64,000 nt of DNA. Origin: Leisingera sp. SS27. GTDB taxonomy: Bacteria > Pseudomonadota > Alphaproteobacteria > Rhodobacterales > Rhodobacteraceae. The notes under the pieces are model-generated. The model was not told where the DNA came from. It did not search any database and saw only the letters and a list, made by a program, of their open reading frames with translations. The stretch is from contig NZ_JAQNCY010000004.1 in assembly GCF_028368855.1 (NCBI RefSeq), positions 62,001 to 126,000 of the forward strand, given 5' to 3'. Of the stretch, positions 5,374-12,445 are shown in pieces. A program made the translations under genes and the position numbers. Numbering within the stretch: the first letter of the stretch is position 1; each line of letters begins with the position of its first letter.

Positions 5374-5403
5374 TGTGATCACAGCAAATAATTAGTGATC
5401 ACA
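5374..5403. promoter_or_regulatory. Paired palindromic operator upstream of sdhC
   Basis: TGTGATCACA (5374-5383) and AGTGATCACA (5394-5403) are separated by the AT-rich GCAAATAATT. The centre-to-centre distance is 20 bp. The pair lies about 117 bases upstream of the sdhC start. Nearly the same pair precedes sucC at 12415-12445, which argues that it is a real regulator site. The half sites resemble CRP halves but have no 6-bp spacer, so it is not a normal CRP site. The cognate factor is unknown. Confidence 0.7.
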
Positions 5404-5451
5404 AATCTGCCGATTGAAAATTTTTTGCAGAATCAGGGCCCCTTCTGCAAA

Positions 5452-6153
5452 TCACTGCAAAGACGCAACCGCCCTCTCTGTCCCTGCAGGCAGTGCCGCG
5501 GTCTGTCTTGCCACCTCTCTGACCAGCTTCTTACGGATGCGCGACGGGTAGTCGGCAAAGCTCGCGGCAGAGACCACAAAGGCCCCCTCTCCGCGGATGA
5601 CATTTTCAAAGAAATAGGCCGTCAGGTCCGGCTCGCTCTGCTCGATGGCGATGGCATTCACAGTGACCCCTGCCGCGGCAAGCGCGCCATGCACTTCGCG
5701 CGGCTCGATCCCCTCGTTGGAGAATCCGTCACCGGAGACATCAATCACCCTTCGCTTGCAGTGCTCCACTGCCGGAAACTGCTCTAACGCCAGAAACAAA
5801 GCCTCCCCCACCGCGGTGGAGTAATTGCGCCAGGGCCGCGGCGCCTGCTCAATTGCCTGCGCCAGCGCCTCGACATCGCCAAACGTCCGGATCTCCGACC
5901 AGGGCAGCGTCACTTCCTGACGCGACTCGCCCGACCATTGCAGCAGCAGCACCTGCGCACGCGCCTTGACCAGCGCCTCAGAGACCACGCCGTCGCGCAA
6001 CCCCGCCGCCAGCCCGTCCATCTGAATCCGGTATTCCTCGGCATCAACTGAGCCGGAGACATCCACCGCCAGCACCAATGCCAGATCGCAGGCCGCTGCG
6101 CGCAGCGGCCAAAGGGAGAGCATGGAGAAAACCAGAAGCTGCAAAACCCGCAT
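5452..6153 (-). CDS. DUF1194 secreted von Willebrand factor A-like protein
   Basis: A 233-residue protein with a signal peptide (MRVLQLLVFSMLSLWPLRAAA) followed by CDLALVLAVDVSGSVDAEEY. DVSGS is the MIDAS metal-binding motif of VWA domains, with supporting Ser/Thr and Asp residues in NYSTAVGEAL and VIDVSGDGFSNEG. This arrangement is characteristic of DUF1194 proteins of Rhizobiales and Rhodobacterales. It is probably periplasmic or secreted; the ligand is unknown. The gene ends about 50 bases upstream of the sdh operator pair on the same strand, so read-through into sdh is possible. Confidence 0.8.
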   Translation of the reverse strand: MRVLQLLVFSMLSLWPLRAAACDLALVLAVDVSGSVDAEEYRIQMDGLAAGLRDGVVSEALVKARAQVLLLQWSGESRQEVTLPWSEIRTFGDVEALAQAIEQAPRPWRNYSTAVGEALFLALEQFPAVEHCKRRVIDVSGDGFSNEGIEPREVHGALAAAGVTVNAIAIEQSEPDLTAYFFENVIRGEGAFVVSAASFADYPSRIRKKLVREVARQTAALPAGTERAVASLQ

Positions 6154-6227
6154 GCGTCCAGCTTAAGCTGATTGCAGCTTTCAGGGCTATCACTTTTGCG
6201 CGGGGAGTTTACCGGCACTCAGGCCGC

Positions 6228-6259
6228 AAAATCTGCTGCGGCTTGAGTGCCGCAGCAGA
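6228..6259 (-). terminator. Intrinsic terminator after the TM2 gene pair
   Basis: TCTGCTGCGGC (6232-6242) and GCCGCAGCAGA (6249-6259) form an 11-bp perfect stem with a 6-base loop. On the minus strand it is followed by TTTTG. It starts six bases past the TM2 gene stop. Confidence 0.75.
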
Positions 6260-6265
6260 CAAGTT

Positions 6266-6505
6266 TCAGCGGCGCAGCGGCAGACCGTCCCGGTCGCCCA
6301 TGGAGCCGATAATCAGGCGGACAAAGTCAATAATTGTCCAGATCCCCAGGCCGCCAAGCGTGATCAGCATGAGGATGCCGGTGCCGATCTTGCCGAGATA
6401 GAAACGGTGCGCGCCCAGCGATCCCAGAAAGAAGCAGAGCAGCACAGCGGGAACGAACCCCTTTTCGCTAACGTCGCCGGCAACTGCATGATCCATATTT
6501 GCCAT
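6266..6505 (-). CDS. TM2 domain-containing membrane protein
   Basis: A 79-residue protein starting MANMDHAVAGDVSEKGF. It contains a TM2 domain: a first helix AVLLCFFLGSLGAHRFYLGK, the turn GTGILMLITLGGLGIW and a second helix IIDFVRLIIG. The GxHRFYLGK turn is the family hallmark. The start at 6505 is preferred over an upstream ATG that would overlap the previous gene. It follows a second TM2 gene by 13 bases and ends in a terminator. Role unknown; the family is two-helix membrane proteins of poorly defined function. Confidence 0.8.
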   Translation of the reverse strand: MANMDHAVAGDVSEKGFVPAVLLCFFLGSLGAHRFYLGKIGTGILMLITLGGLGIWTIIDFVRLIIGSMGDRDGLPLRR

Positions 6506-6518
6506 GTTGTTCTTAACC

Positions 6519-10302: not shown

Positions 10303-10380
10303 GCAGGTATTGAGGCAGGTTTCCAGGCTGCAGGTTAAGCGGCCGGGGACGCCGCGCGGGCTGGCTGATATGAGCAGACT

Positions 10381-11139
10381 TCAGACCAGCCCGTCCCAGA
10401 TCAGCTTGGCACCGGTCACCGTCAGCAGCACATAGGTGAGCGCAAAGAACCAGCGCTCCGGGATCGAATGGTGCAGCTTTACACCCAGCCAGGCCCCCAG
10501 AAGGGCAAAGGGCGCCAGGACCAGATCCAGCGTCAAGGTCTCGCGGGTAAAAAGCCCCAGCCCGGCATAAGGCACCGCCTTGACGATGTTGATGGCCCAG
10601 AAGATCAGCACTGTGCTGGCCTGGTACTCGGTCTTCCGCAACTTGAGGCTGAGAAGATAGACCGCGGCCGGCGGGCCGCCTGCGTGGCTGACAAAACTGG
10701 TGAACCCCACCGCCAGCCCTGCCAGCGCCCCGGCGCCTGTTGACAACGGCGCATCCGCTGCCAGCCGCAGCCCCAGCCGTGCCCGCAGCTGCCACAATAC
10801 AAAACCAATGGAAACGGCACCGATCAGCACCCGCATCGCATCGGCATCCACCGCCGCATAAAGCCAGGTCCCCAATGCCACACCGGGCAATCCGCCGCCA
10901 ATCAGCAGCAGCGACGCCCGCAGGTTCCAGCGCCCCCAGTAGGGCTTCAGATTGGCCACGTCGATCAGCATCAGGAGCGGCAGCATCAGCGCCAGCGCGG
11001 CGCCCGGCTCCAGCACAAGCGCCAGAATCGACGCGGAGGCAAAGGCTGCGCCAGACCCGAAACCGCCCTTGGACACGCCCGCAAAAACGACCGCCGGGAT
11101 GGCAAAAACGAAAAACATTGCATCAAACGCCGCCATCAC
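10381..11139 (-). CDS. TSUP family (TauE/SafE) anion permease
   Basis: A 252-residue polytopic membrane protein with about eight helices. The N-terminus has FAIPAVVFAGVSKGGFGSGAAFAS, the glycine-rich SKGGFG element of the first TSUP repeat; the second repeat has GLAVGFTSFVSHAGGPPAAVYLL with the HAGGPP motif. TSUP proteins export sulfite, sulfoacetate or related organic anions. No sulfur-metabolism genes lie beside it, so the substrate is not predictable. It is monocistronic, divergent from mdh. Confidence 0.85.
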   Translation of the reverse strand: MMAAFDAMFFVFAIPAVVFAGVSKGGFGSGAAFASASILALVLEPGAALALMLPLLMLIDVANLKPYWGRWNLRASLLLIGGGLPGVALGTWLYAAVDADAMRVLIGAVSIGFVLWQLRARLGLRLAADAPLSTGAGALAGLAVGFTSFVSHAGGPPAAVYLLSLKLRKTEYQASTVLIFWAINIVKAVPYAGLGLFTRETLTLDLVLAPFALLGAWLGVKLHHSIPERWFFALTYVLLTVTGAKLIWDGLV

Positions 11140-11295
11140 CTGCCCTCCGAAATGCCCAGATTACAGACGGTTTAGCGGTATCAGCACGGTATACACAAGC
11201 ATACAGAGCCGATTGCCGCAGCGCAGAGCCCTTGCACGGCACGGGTTTACGCCGTAGGCATCAGGAAATTTCAACCGGACCGGAGACATTTTCCA

Positions 11296-12258
11296 ATGGC
11301 ACGACCCAAAATCGCCCTCATCGGCGCAGGTCAGATCGGCGGCACCCTCGCACATCTCGCAGCCCTCAAGGAACTGGGCGACGTCGTTCTCTTCGACATC
11401 GCCGAAGGCATCCCCGAAGGCAAGGCGCTGGACATCGCAGAATCCGGTCCCTCCGAGGGTTTTGACGCCTCCCTGAAGGGCACCCAGTCCTACGAGGACA
11501 TCGCAGGCGCCGACGTCTGCATCGTGACCGCCGGCGTGCCGCGCAAGCCGGGCATGAGCCGCGACGATCTCCTGGGCATCAACCTCAAGGTGATGAAATC
11601 CGTCGGCGAAGGCATCCGCGACCACGCGCCGAACGCCTTCGTGATCTGCATCACCAACCCGCTGGACGCAATGGTCTGGGCGCTGCAGCAATTCTCGGGC
11701 CTGCCCGCGAACAAGGTCTGCGGCATGGCCGGCGTTCTGGACTCCGCCCGCTTCCGTCACTTCCTGGCTGAGGAATTCGGCGTCTCCATGAAAGACGTCA
11801 CCGCGTTTGTGCTGGGCGGCCACGGCGACACCATGGTGCCGTCGGTGCGCTACTCCACCGTTGCAGGGATCCCGCTGCCCGACCTGGTCAAGATGGGCTG
11901 GACCACCCAGGAGCGTCTGGACGCCATCCTGCAGCGCACCCGTGACGGCGGCGCAGAAATCGTTGGCCTGCTGAAAACCGGCTCCGCCTTCTATGCGCCG
12001 GCAACCTCCGCCATCGAAATGGCCGAGGCCTTCCTGAAAGACCAGAAGCGCGTGCTGCCCTGCGCCGCCTATTGCGACGGCGAACTGGGCGTCAAGGACA
12101 TGTATGTGGGCGTGCCCACCGTGATCGGCGCCGGCGGCATCGAGAAGGTGGTGAACATCCAGCTGAACGAGGAAGAGCAGGCAATGTTCGACAACTCGGT
12201 CAACGCCGTGAAGGGCCTGGTCGAAGCCTGCAAGGGCATCGACGCCTCGCTGGCCTAA
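11296..12258 (+). CDS. mdh: Malate dehydrogenase (NAD-dependent)
   Basis: A 320-residue lactate/malate dehydrogenase-fold enzyme that oxidises malate to oxaloacetate in the TCA cycle. It shows the NAD-binding IGAGQIGG (residues 9-16), the substrate loop [12 protein letters not shown] with Arg83 typical of malate rather than lactate specificity, [10 protein letters not shown] and the catalytic His176 in GGHGDTMVP. The length matches the alphaproteobacterial type. It lies directly before sucC but has its own strong terminator, so it is a separate transcript. Confidence 0.97.
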
Positions 12259-12283
12259 GCCCCGCAGCCACCGGAAATCAGAG

Positions 12284-12312
12284 AGGCCCGCTTGCAGCGG
12301 GCCTTTTCTTTT
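12284..12312 (+). terminator. Intrinsic terminator of mdh
   Basis: AGGCCCGC (12284-12291), loop TTGCA, GCGGGCCT (12297-12304), then TTTCTTTT. It sits 25 bases after the mdh stop and separates mdh from the suc operon. Confidence 0.9.
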
Positions 12313-12414
12313 GCGGCGCCGCACCGTGGCCGCCGCTGCCGCTTTTGGCCTATGATGCGGCGAGTGCAGGCTTCGGACCTGCCTCGAATCACCCGCATCA
12401 AGCCTTCGTTAAAT

Positions 12415-12445
12415 TGTGATCACACCCCCAAATCCTGTGATCACA
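12415..12445. promoter_or_regulatory. Paired palindromic operator upstream of sucC
   Basis: Two exact copies of TGTGATCACA (12415-12424 and 12436-12445) separated by 11 bases, so 21 bp centre to centre. It lies 48 bases upstream of a plausible -35 box and about 114 bases before sucC. The same arrangement precedes sdhC at 5374-5403. The position upstream of the core promoter suggests activation, although repression by looping is possible. Confidence 0.72.

Follow-up and report, generated by a model that had tools for sequence, protein, structure and literature searches.

In Rhodobacter sphaeroides, the GntR-family regulator AkgR (RSP_0981) is described as an activator in the accessible text of two papers (PMC4344238, PMC6365646). 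The accessible part of PMC4344238 lists sucCD (RSP_0967-6), sdh (RSP_0974-6) and the 2-oxoglutarate dehydrogenase genes (RSP_0965-62) as its predicted targets, and that of PMC6365646 gives GTGATCAC as its motif. The latter text also proposes that PS417_07240 of Pseudomonas simiae, likewise a GntR protein and 32% identical to AkgR, uses the palindrome GTGATCAC before its own gene; this system differs in its deoxyribonate cluster and in the one box reported. CceR, which by title belongs to the same 2015 study, likewise acts in alphaproteobacterial central carbon metabolism and is a member of another protein family (LacI). As far as the accessible text of PMC5507952, PMC4419725, PMC7471390, PMC8557541 and PMC11323563 goes, AkgR occurs there only within a citation of the 2015 paper. 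Among the papers on AkgR and its motif that we searched, a set outside which the original 2015 mBio study lies, we found no description of a fixed paired geometry. Here, we analysed a stretch of 64,000 nucleotides from Leisingera sp. SS27 (contig NZ_JAQNCY010000004.1, positions 62,001 to 126,000; the window), in which the succinate dehydrogenase (sdh) operon and the succinyl-CoA ligase/2-oxoglutarate dehydrogenase (suc) operon are each preceded by a pair of short palindromic boxes, very probably operators at which paired AkgR dimers activate both operons, with a single operator probably serving autocontrol of akgR.

The first-pass annotation of the window had described two palindrome copies per operon and ascribed all of them to a single undescribed regulator of the tricarboxylic acid (TCA) cycle. 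Its coordinates for the boxes were correct:

5374..5383, no strand: sdh proximal box (sdhC side), TGTGATCACA, by sequence match
5394..5403, no strand: sdh distal box, AGTGATCACA on the plus strand, 9/10, 20 bp from the proximal box
12415..12424, no strand: suc distal box, TGTGATCACA, by sequence match
12436..12445, no strand: suc proximal box, TGTGATCACA, 21 bp from the distal box

Both suc boxes are perfect copies of TGTGATCACA, whereas at sdh the second copy matches at only nine of ten positions. The spacings of 20 and 21 bp correspond to about two helical turns, as had been noted, and the impression that the pair is missing from the other intergenic regions was borne out, no further exact or one-mismatch copy of TGTGATCACA being present in the window beyond these four boxes. 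In relatives, the sequence flanking the distal box on its outer side is mostly TTTGTGATCAC, and that flanking the proximal box mostly GTGATCACAAA. TGTGA and TCACA are CRP half sites, and the CRP consensus is TGTGA-N6-TCACA; this resemblance could mark the boxes as sites of the CRP/FNR family. However, the half sites abut in all four boxes, as already observed, without the 6-bp spacer of that consensus, and the core GTGATCAC is printed as a GntR motif in the accessible AkgR literature and tracks a GntR gene. We regard a CRP/FNR-type factor as extremely improbable.

The part of the earlier claim that one regulator serves both sdh and suc is supported, but its description of this regulator as undescribed is not: motif and targets are those of AkgR (RSP_0981), whose regulon in R. 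sphaeroides shares the GntR family, the GTGATCAC motif and the sdh and sucCD/2-oxoglutarate dehydrogenase targets. The pair is a real finding that is largely known, its regulator most likely being one already described. We searched the whole Leisingera genome (G000; 4,798,424 bases in 30 contigs), where the full 10-mer TGTGATCACA occurs at six places, three of them within the sdh and suc pairs. The fourth is located 8 bp upstream of the ATG of a 218-residue GntR/FCD protein, the AkgR candidate, encoded outside the window on contig C26:253980-254636 (L008:837-1493, minus strand); the remaining two are inside open reading frames (ORFs) with Pfam support, for an alcohol dehydrogenase (L007) and a Na+/H+ antiporter (L009). 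The candidate carries a GntR winged helix (PF00392, 51 bits) and an FCD domain (PF07729, 65 bits), and its named nearest relatives are mostly from Leisingera. McbR has a role that differs from that of AkgR. By sequence it is the closest solved structure (PDB 4p9f; aligned over residues 22-214 of 218, E 1.6e-21). The exact-core pair GTGATCAC-N8..14-GTGATCAC was found at three places, namely sdh, suc and a site deep inside an ORF without family (L001). Since the core alone occurs 217 times, about 0.07 pairs with a spacer of 8-14 would be expected by chance, against the three observed.

Conservation of the pair before sdhC and sucC was evident in a family sample of 120 genomes, one per genus. The exact-core pair was present in 106 of them at 196 places (hand count), with exactly two copies in 81 genomes, one in 21, three in 3 and four in 1. 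A control pair of equal composition, CAGATCTG, was found in 2/120, a rough control, since this genome contains the control core only about half as often (120 versus 217 occurrences). CTAG is rare in bacteria, and a reversed-pattern control, which contains it, was not relied on. With the spacer range widened from 8-14 to 0-30, the number of places grew by little, from 196 to 210 (both counted by hand). The 84 places that we classified comprise 78 of the 196 (with L001 but without the two pairs of the window), two of G141 and four from other families. Thirty-five lie before sdhC, 41 before sucC, one before another GntR gene in another family and seven elsewhere; 76 of the 80 examined family pairs precede sdhC or sucC. 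The spacer in these 76 pairs is 13 in 68 cases and 12 in eight. The four family pairs away from sdhC and sucC are L001, L095, L164 and L096, of which the first three (no family, cytochrome oxidase and histidine kinase, respectively) are deep within ORFs.

The pair also follows the AkgR ortholog from genome to genome. An ortholog was found at E <=2.9e-57 in 104/120 family genomes; at E 1e-35 the number is 106/120, and G019 and G054 were set aside as paralog-level matches. Both pair and ortholog are present in 103 genomes and neither in 13, while three have the pair only and one the ortholog only (Fisher p 9e-14, kinship ignored). The ortholog-only genome, G040, has a 15/16 pair with a spacer of 13 before sdhC. 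Its sdhA is divided over two contigs (L227, L228), either because the assembly breaks there or because the gene was rearranged. The 13 genomes with neither have at best a 13/16 pair before sdhC, their sucC promoters being covered by the exact whole-genome search; in G021, where no sdhC was detected, the scan covered 2.3 kb. Of the 38 genomes with both positions listed (G042:C16, G044:C27 and G044:C57 were left out as not sdh/suc), 16 have the ortholog no more than 24 kb from a pair, and at L210 it follows sdhCDA, as the tags RSP_0974-6 and RSP_0981 would suggest. A SdhC/D/A tree of 49 rows was built without G141; its best topology requires the pair state to change at least 8 times and the akgR state at least 10 times, with support for few of the branches.

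A paralogous GntR/FCD regulator, such as L150 (39% identical, contig C4), could instead bind the pairs. This genome has eight GntR matches at E 1e-5, the candidate included; G019 combines the pair with a paralog-level match only; and the P. simiae protein, proposed for the same GTGATCAC in the accessible text, indicates that more than one ortholog group shares the motif. Against a paralog, in about 39 pair-bearing genomes the single match at E 1e-35 is the ortholog (hand count; up to 25 candidates scored per genome), G054 has a paralog-level match only and no pair, and the 10-mer stands directly before the start of the AkgR ortholog while the 3.6-kb locus of L150 is free of GTGATCAC. We consider a paralog very unlikely, and the assignment of the boxes to AkgR is strong by convergence of these lines.

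The genes and candidate promoter elements around the two pairs are as follows:

4874..5257, minus strand: sdhC (Sdh_cyt, Pfam)
4484..4855, minus strand: sdhD (Sdh_cyt, Pfam)
2659..4464, minus strand: sdhA (FAD_binding_2 and Succ_DH_flav_C, Pfam)
1868..2647, minus strand: sdhB (Fer2_3, Pfam)
5309..5314, minus strand: candidate sdh -35 element GTGACA, 60 bases downstream of the proximal core
5287..5292, minus strand: candidate sdh -10 element TAAAAC, 16 bp after the -35 element
11296..12258, plus strand: malate/lactate dehydrogenase gene (called mdh, Pfam), upstream of the suc pair
12284..12304, no strand: terminator-like hairpin between mdh and the suc pair
12492..12497, plus strand: candidate suc -35 element TTTAAC, 47 bases after the proximal core, not reported by a generic scan
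12517..12522, plus strand: candidate suc -10 element TATAAA, 19 bp after TTTAAC
12559..13752, plus strand: sucC, succinate-CoA ligase beta
15293..16177, plus strand: sucD, succinate-CoA ligase alpha
17363..20314, plus strand: sucA, 2-oxoglutarate dehydrogenase E1

Because these candidate elements place the pair upstream of RNA polymerase at both sdh and suc, the pair appears to occupy an activator-type site. The first-pass annotation had proposed such a position at suc, about 50 bp from a -35 box, and the 47 bases between the proximal core and TTTAAC agree with it. In the sdhC promoters of relatives, GTGAC lies 57-60 bases downstream of the pair in 27/36, and a TA-starting hexamer follows 16 bp on in 26 of the 29 with GTGAC in range, the best of four spacings having been chosen for each promoter. 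At sucC, the best -35-like match is 45-48 bases from the pair in 20/42. The genes sucD and sucA follow the pair-bearing sucC on the same strand and may share its transcript.

A third operator, outside the window, is found at the promoter of akgR itself. In all 80 akgR loci examined (the best 80 of 535 relatives), the start of the protein match is preceded by the exact core at a distance of 6-103 bp, and an upstream core is present in 29 of the 30 best family loci; the two sets overlap in species. Among 20 hand-picked divergent orthologs, 11 have an exact own-promoter box. TTGA[CT] starts exactly 18 bp before the akgR core in 101/109 loci, and since this places the box across the stretch from the -35 element to the start, it is, judged from the sequence, in a repressor position. 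In three Leisingera akgR promoters (L017, L019 and L020), a second GTGATCAC was observed 44 bp upstream of the usual box and 60 bp before the GntR match.

The conserved single box also bears on whether complementary boxes form an RNA hairpin acting as an attenuator or terminator. Each pair folds as a stem of 10-11 bp with a loop of 11-12 nt, and equal folding was reached in 1/200 and 0/200 shuffles (z -3.8 and -5.6). A palindrome present twice will nevertheless always fold in this way, both pairs are situated upstream of the inferred promoters, the box at akgR is single and unable to form this hairpin, and the spacing is kept at 12-13 nt, which a loop would not need. The exact-core searches would miss compensated stems. 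Altogether, an RNA element seems very improbable.

We favour the reading that the four sdh and suc boxes are operators of AkgR, the GntR/FCD factor encoded on C26. Two AkgR dimers would bind next to each other on the same helical face, at a distance of 20 or 21 bp and perhaps cooperatively, upstream of the promoters of sdhC and sucC. They would thereby activate the operons of succinate dehydrogenase and of succinyl-CoA ligase/2-oxoglutarate dehydrogenase. From the single box over its own core promoter, AkgR probably limits its own synthesis. The activator role, the motif and the predicted sdh and suc targets are carried over from the accessible print on R. sphaeroides; the pairing at 20-21 bp and the akgR box 18 bp after the TTGA[CT] start are counts from this analysis. 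Unlike what the gene tags imply for R. sphaeroides, the regulator gene is far from sdh in this genome.

Several observations weigh against this assignment. At suc, the generic sigma-70 scan reported no promoter, and the best-match promoter elements are missing at the stated distance in 9/36 sdhC and 22/42 sucC promoters of relatives. An exact own-promoter box is missing in 9 of the 20 divergent orthologs. The pair occurs without a detected ortholog in G019 (91% complete, 210 contigs), G096 (77%) and G114 (100%, 320 contigs). In 22 of the 38 genomes the ortholog lies beyond 24 kb (in two of them 119 and 150 kb away on the pair's contig, in the rest on another contig), and in Leisingera sp. SS27 C26 carries the GntR gene and C25 sdh and suc. 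The SdhC/D/A tree offers only three independent contrasts on well-supported branches (two agree, one shows no difference), which are too few for a test. Finally, the case for orthology to RSP_0981 is built from family, motif, targets and gene neighbourhood.

Beyond sdh and suc, the remaining family pair, L096:1501-1529 of G042, has a spacer of 13 and stands 124 bp before the ATG of fumC, encoding fumarase, another TCA gene, at the edge of an over-extended ORF. By its position, the AkgR regulon may extend to fumarase in G042. Another GTGATCAC pair of that genome, with a spacer of 23, is at L272:1513-1551. In a class-wide scan of 240 genomes, the pair was found in seven, three of them in the family (G000 included) and the others making up 4/237 elsewhere. 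Two of the four out-of-family pairs (G133 and G266, of one family) are near a different GntR gene, and the other two (G321 and G135) are in coding-like ORFs. In this other alphaproteobacterial family, the same paired palindrome was seen near the different GntR gene at L203:992-1020 and L271:5809-5838, the latter also adjoining what we read as a TonB-receptor-like ORF. This arrangement suggests a related regulator with the same operator type in that family.

Within the Leisingera genome, we also searched for the 9-mer TGTGATCAC, which occurs at 47 places (53 rows, with six palindromic doubles), five of them belonging to sdh, suc and akgR. The other 42 divide into 29 deep in coding-like ORFs, that is, at least 40 codons inside an ORF of at least 150 codons with coding-like composition, and 13 ambiguous ones; the criterion is imperfect, as the suc pair itself would count as coding in the over-long ORF 12292-13752. 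Six ambiguous places are in ORFs of Pfam families (L007, L009, L232 with Hfq, L244, L249 and L259), and three are without family (L229, L231 and L251). The remaining four are at codons 0-4 of genes for an ArsC family protein (L245:1501), a glycosyltransferase (L246:1501), an ABC ATPase (L265:1501) and a histidine phosphatase (L268:1501). Enzymes of the gltA, icd or acn type are absent from the families at the 13 ambiguous places, the genes not having been looked up by name. The TGTGATCAC search showed no further target in this genome, sites weaker than the 9-mer lying outside it.

An extension of the AkgR assignment, for and against which we find the case evenly balanced, is that the number and place of operators set the sign of AkgR action, obligatory tandem dimers (at sdh, at suc and at fumC in one relative) making it a cooperative activator and a single dimer at akgR an autorepressor, in a small circuit shared across the family. 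Through this analysis, a TCA regulator supposed to be unknown receives an assignment to a named gene that can be tested, and AkgR sites should be easy to annotate, as the spacing of the operators and the box at the regulator's own gene are conserved across about a hundred genera.

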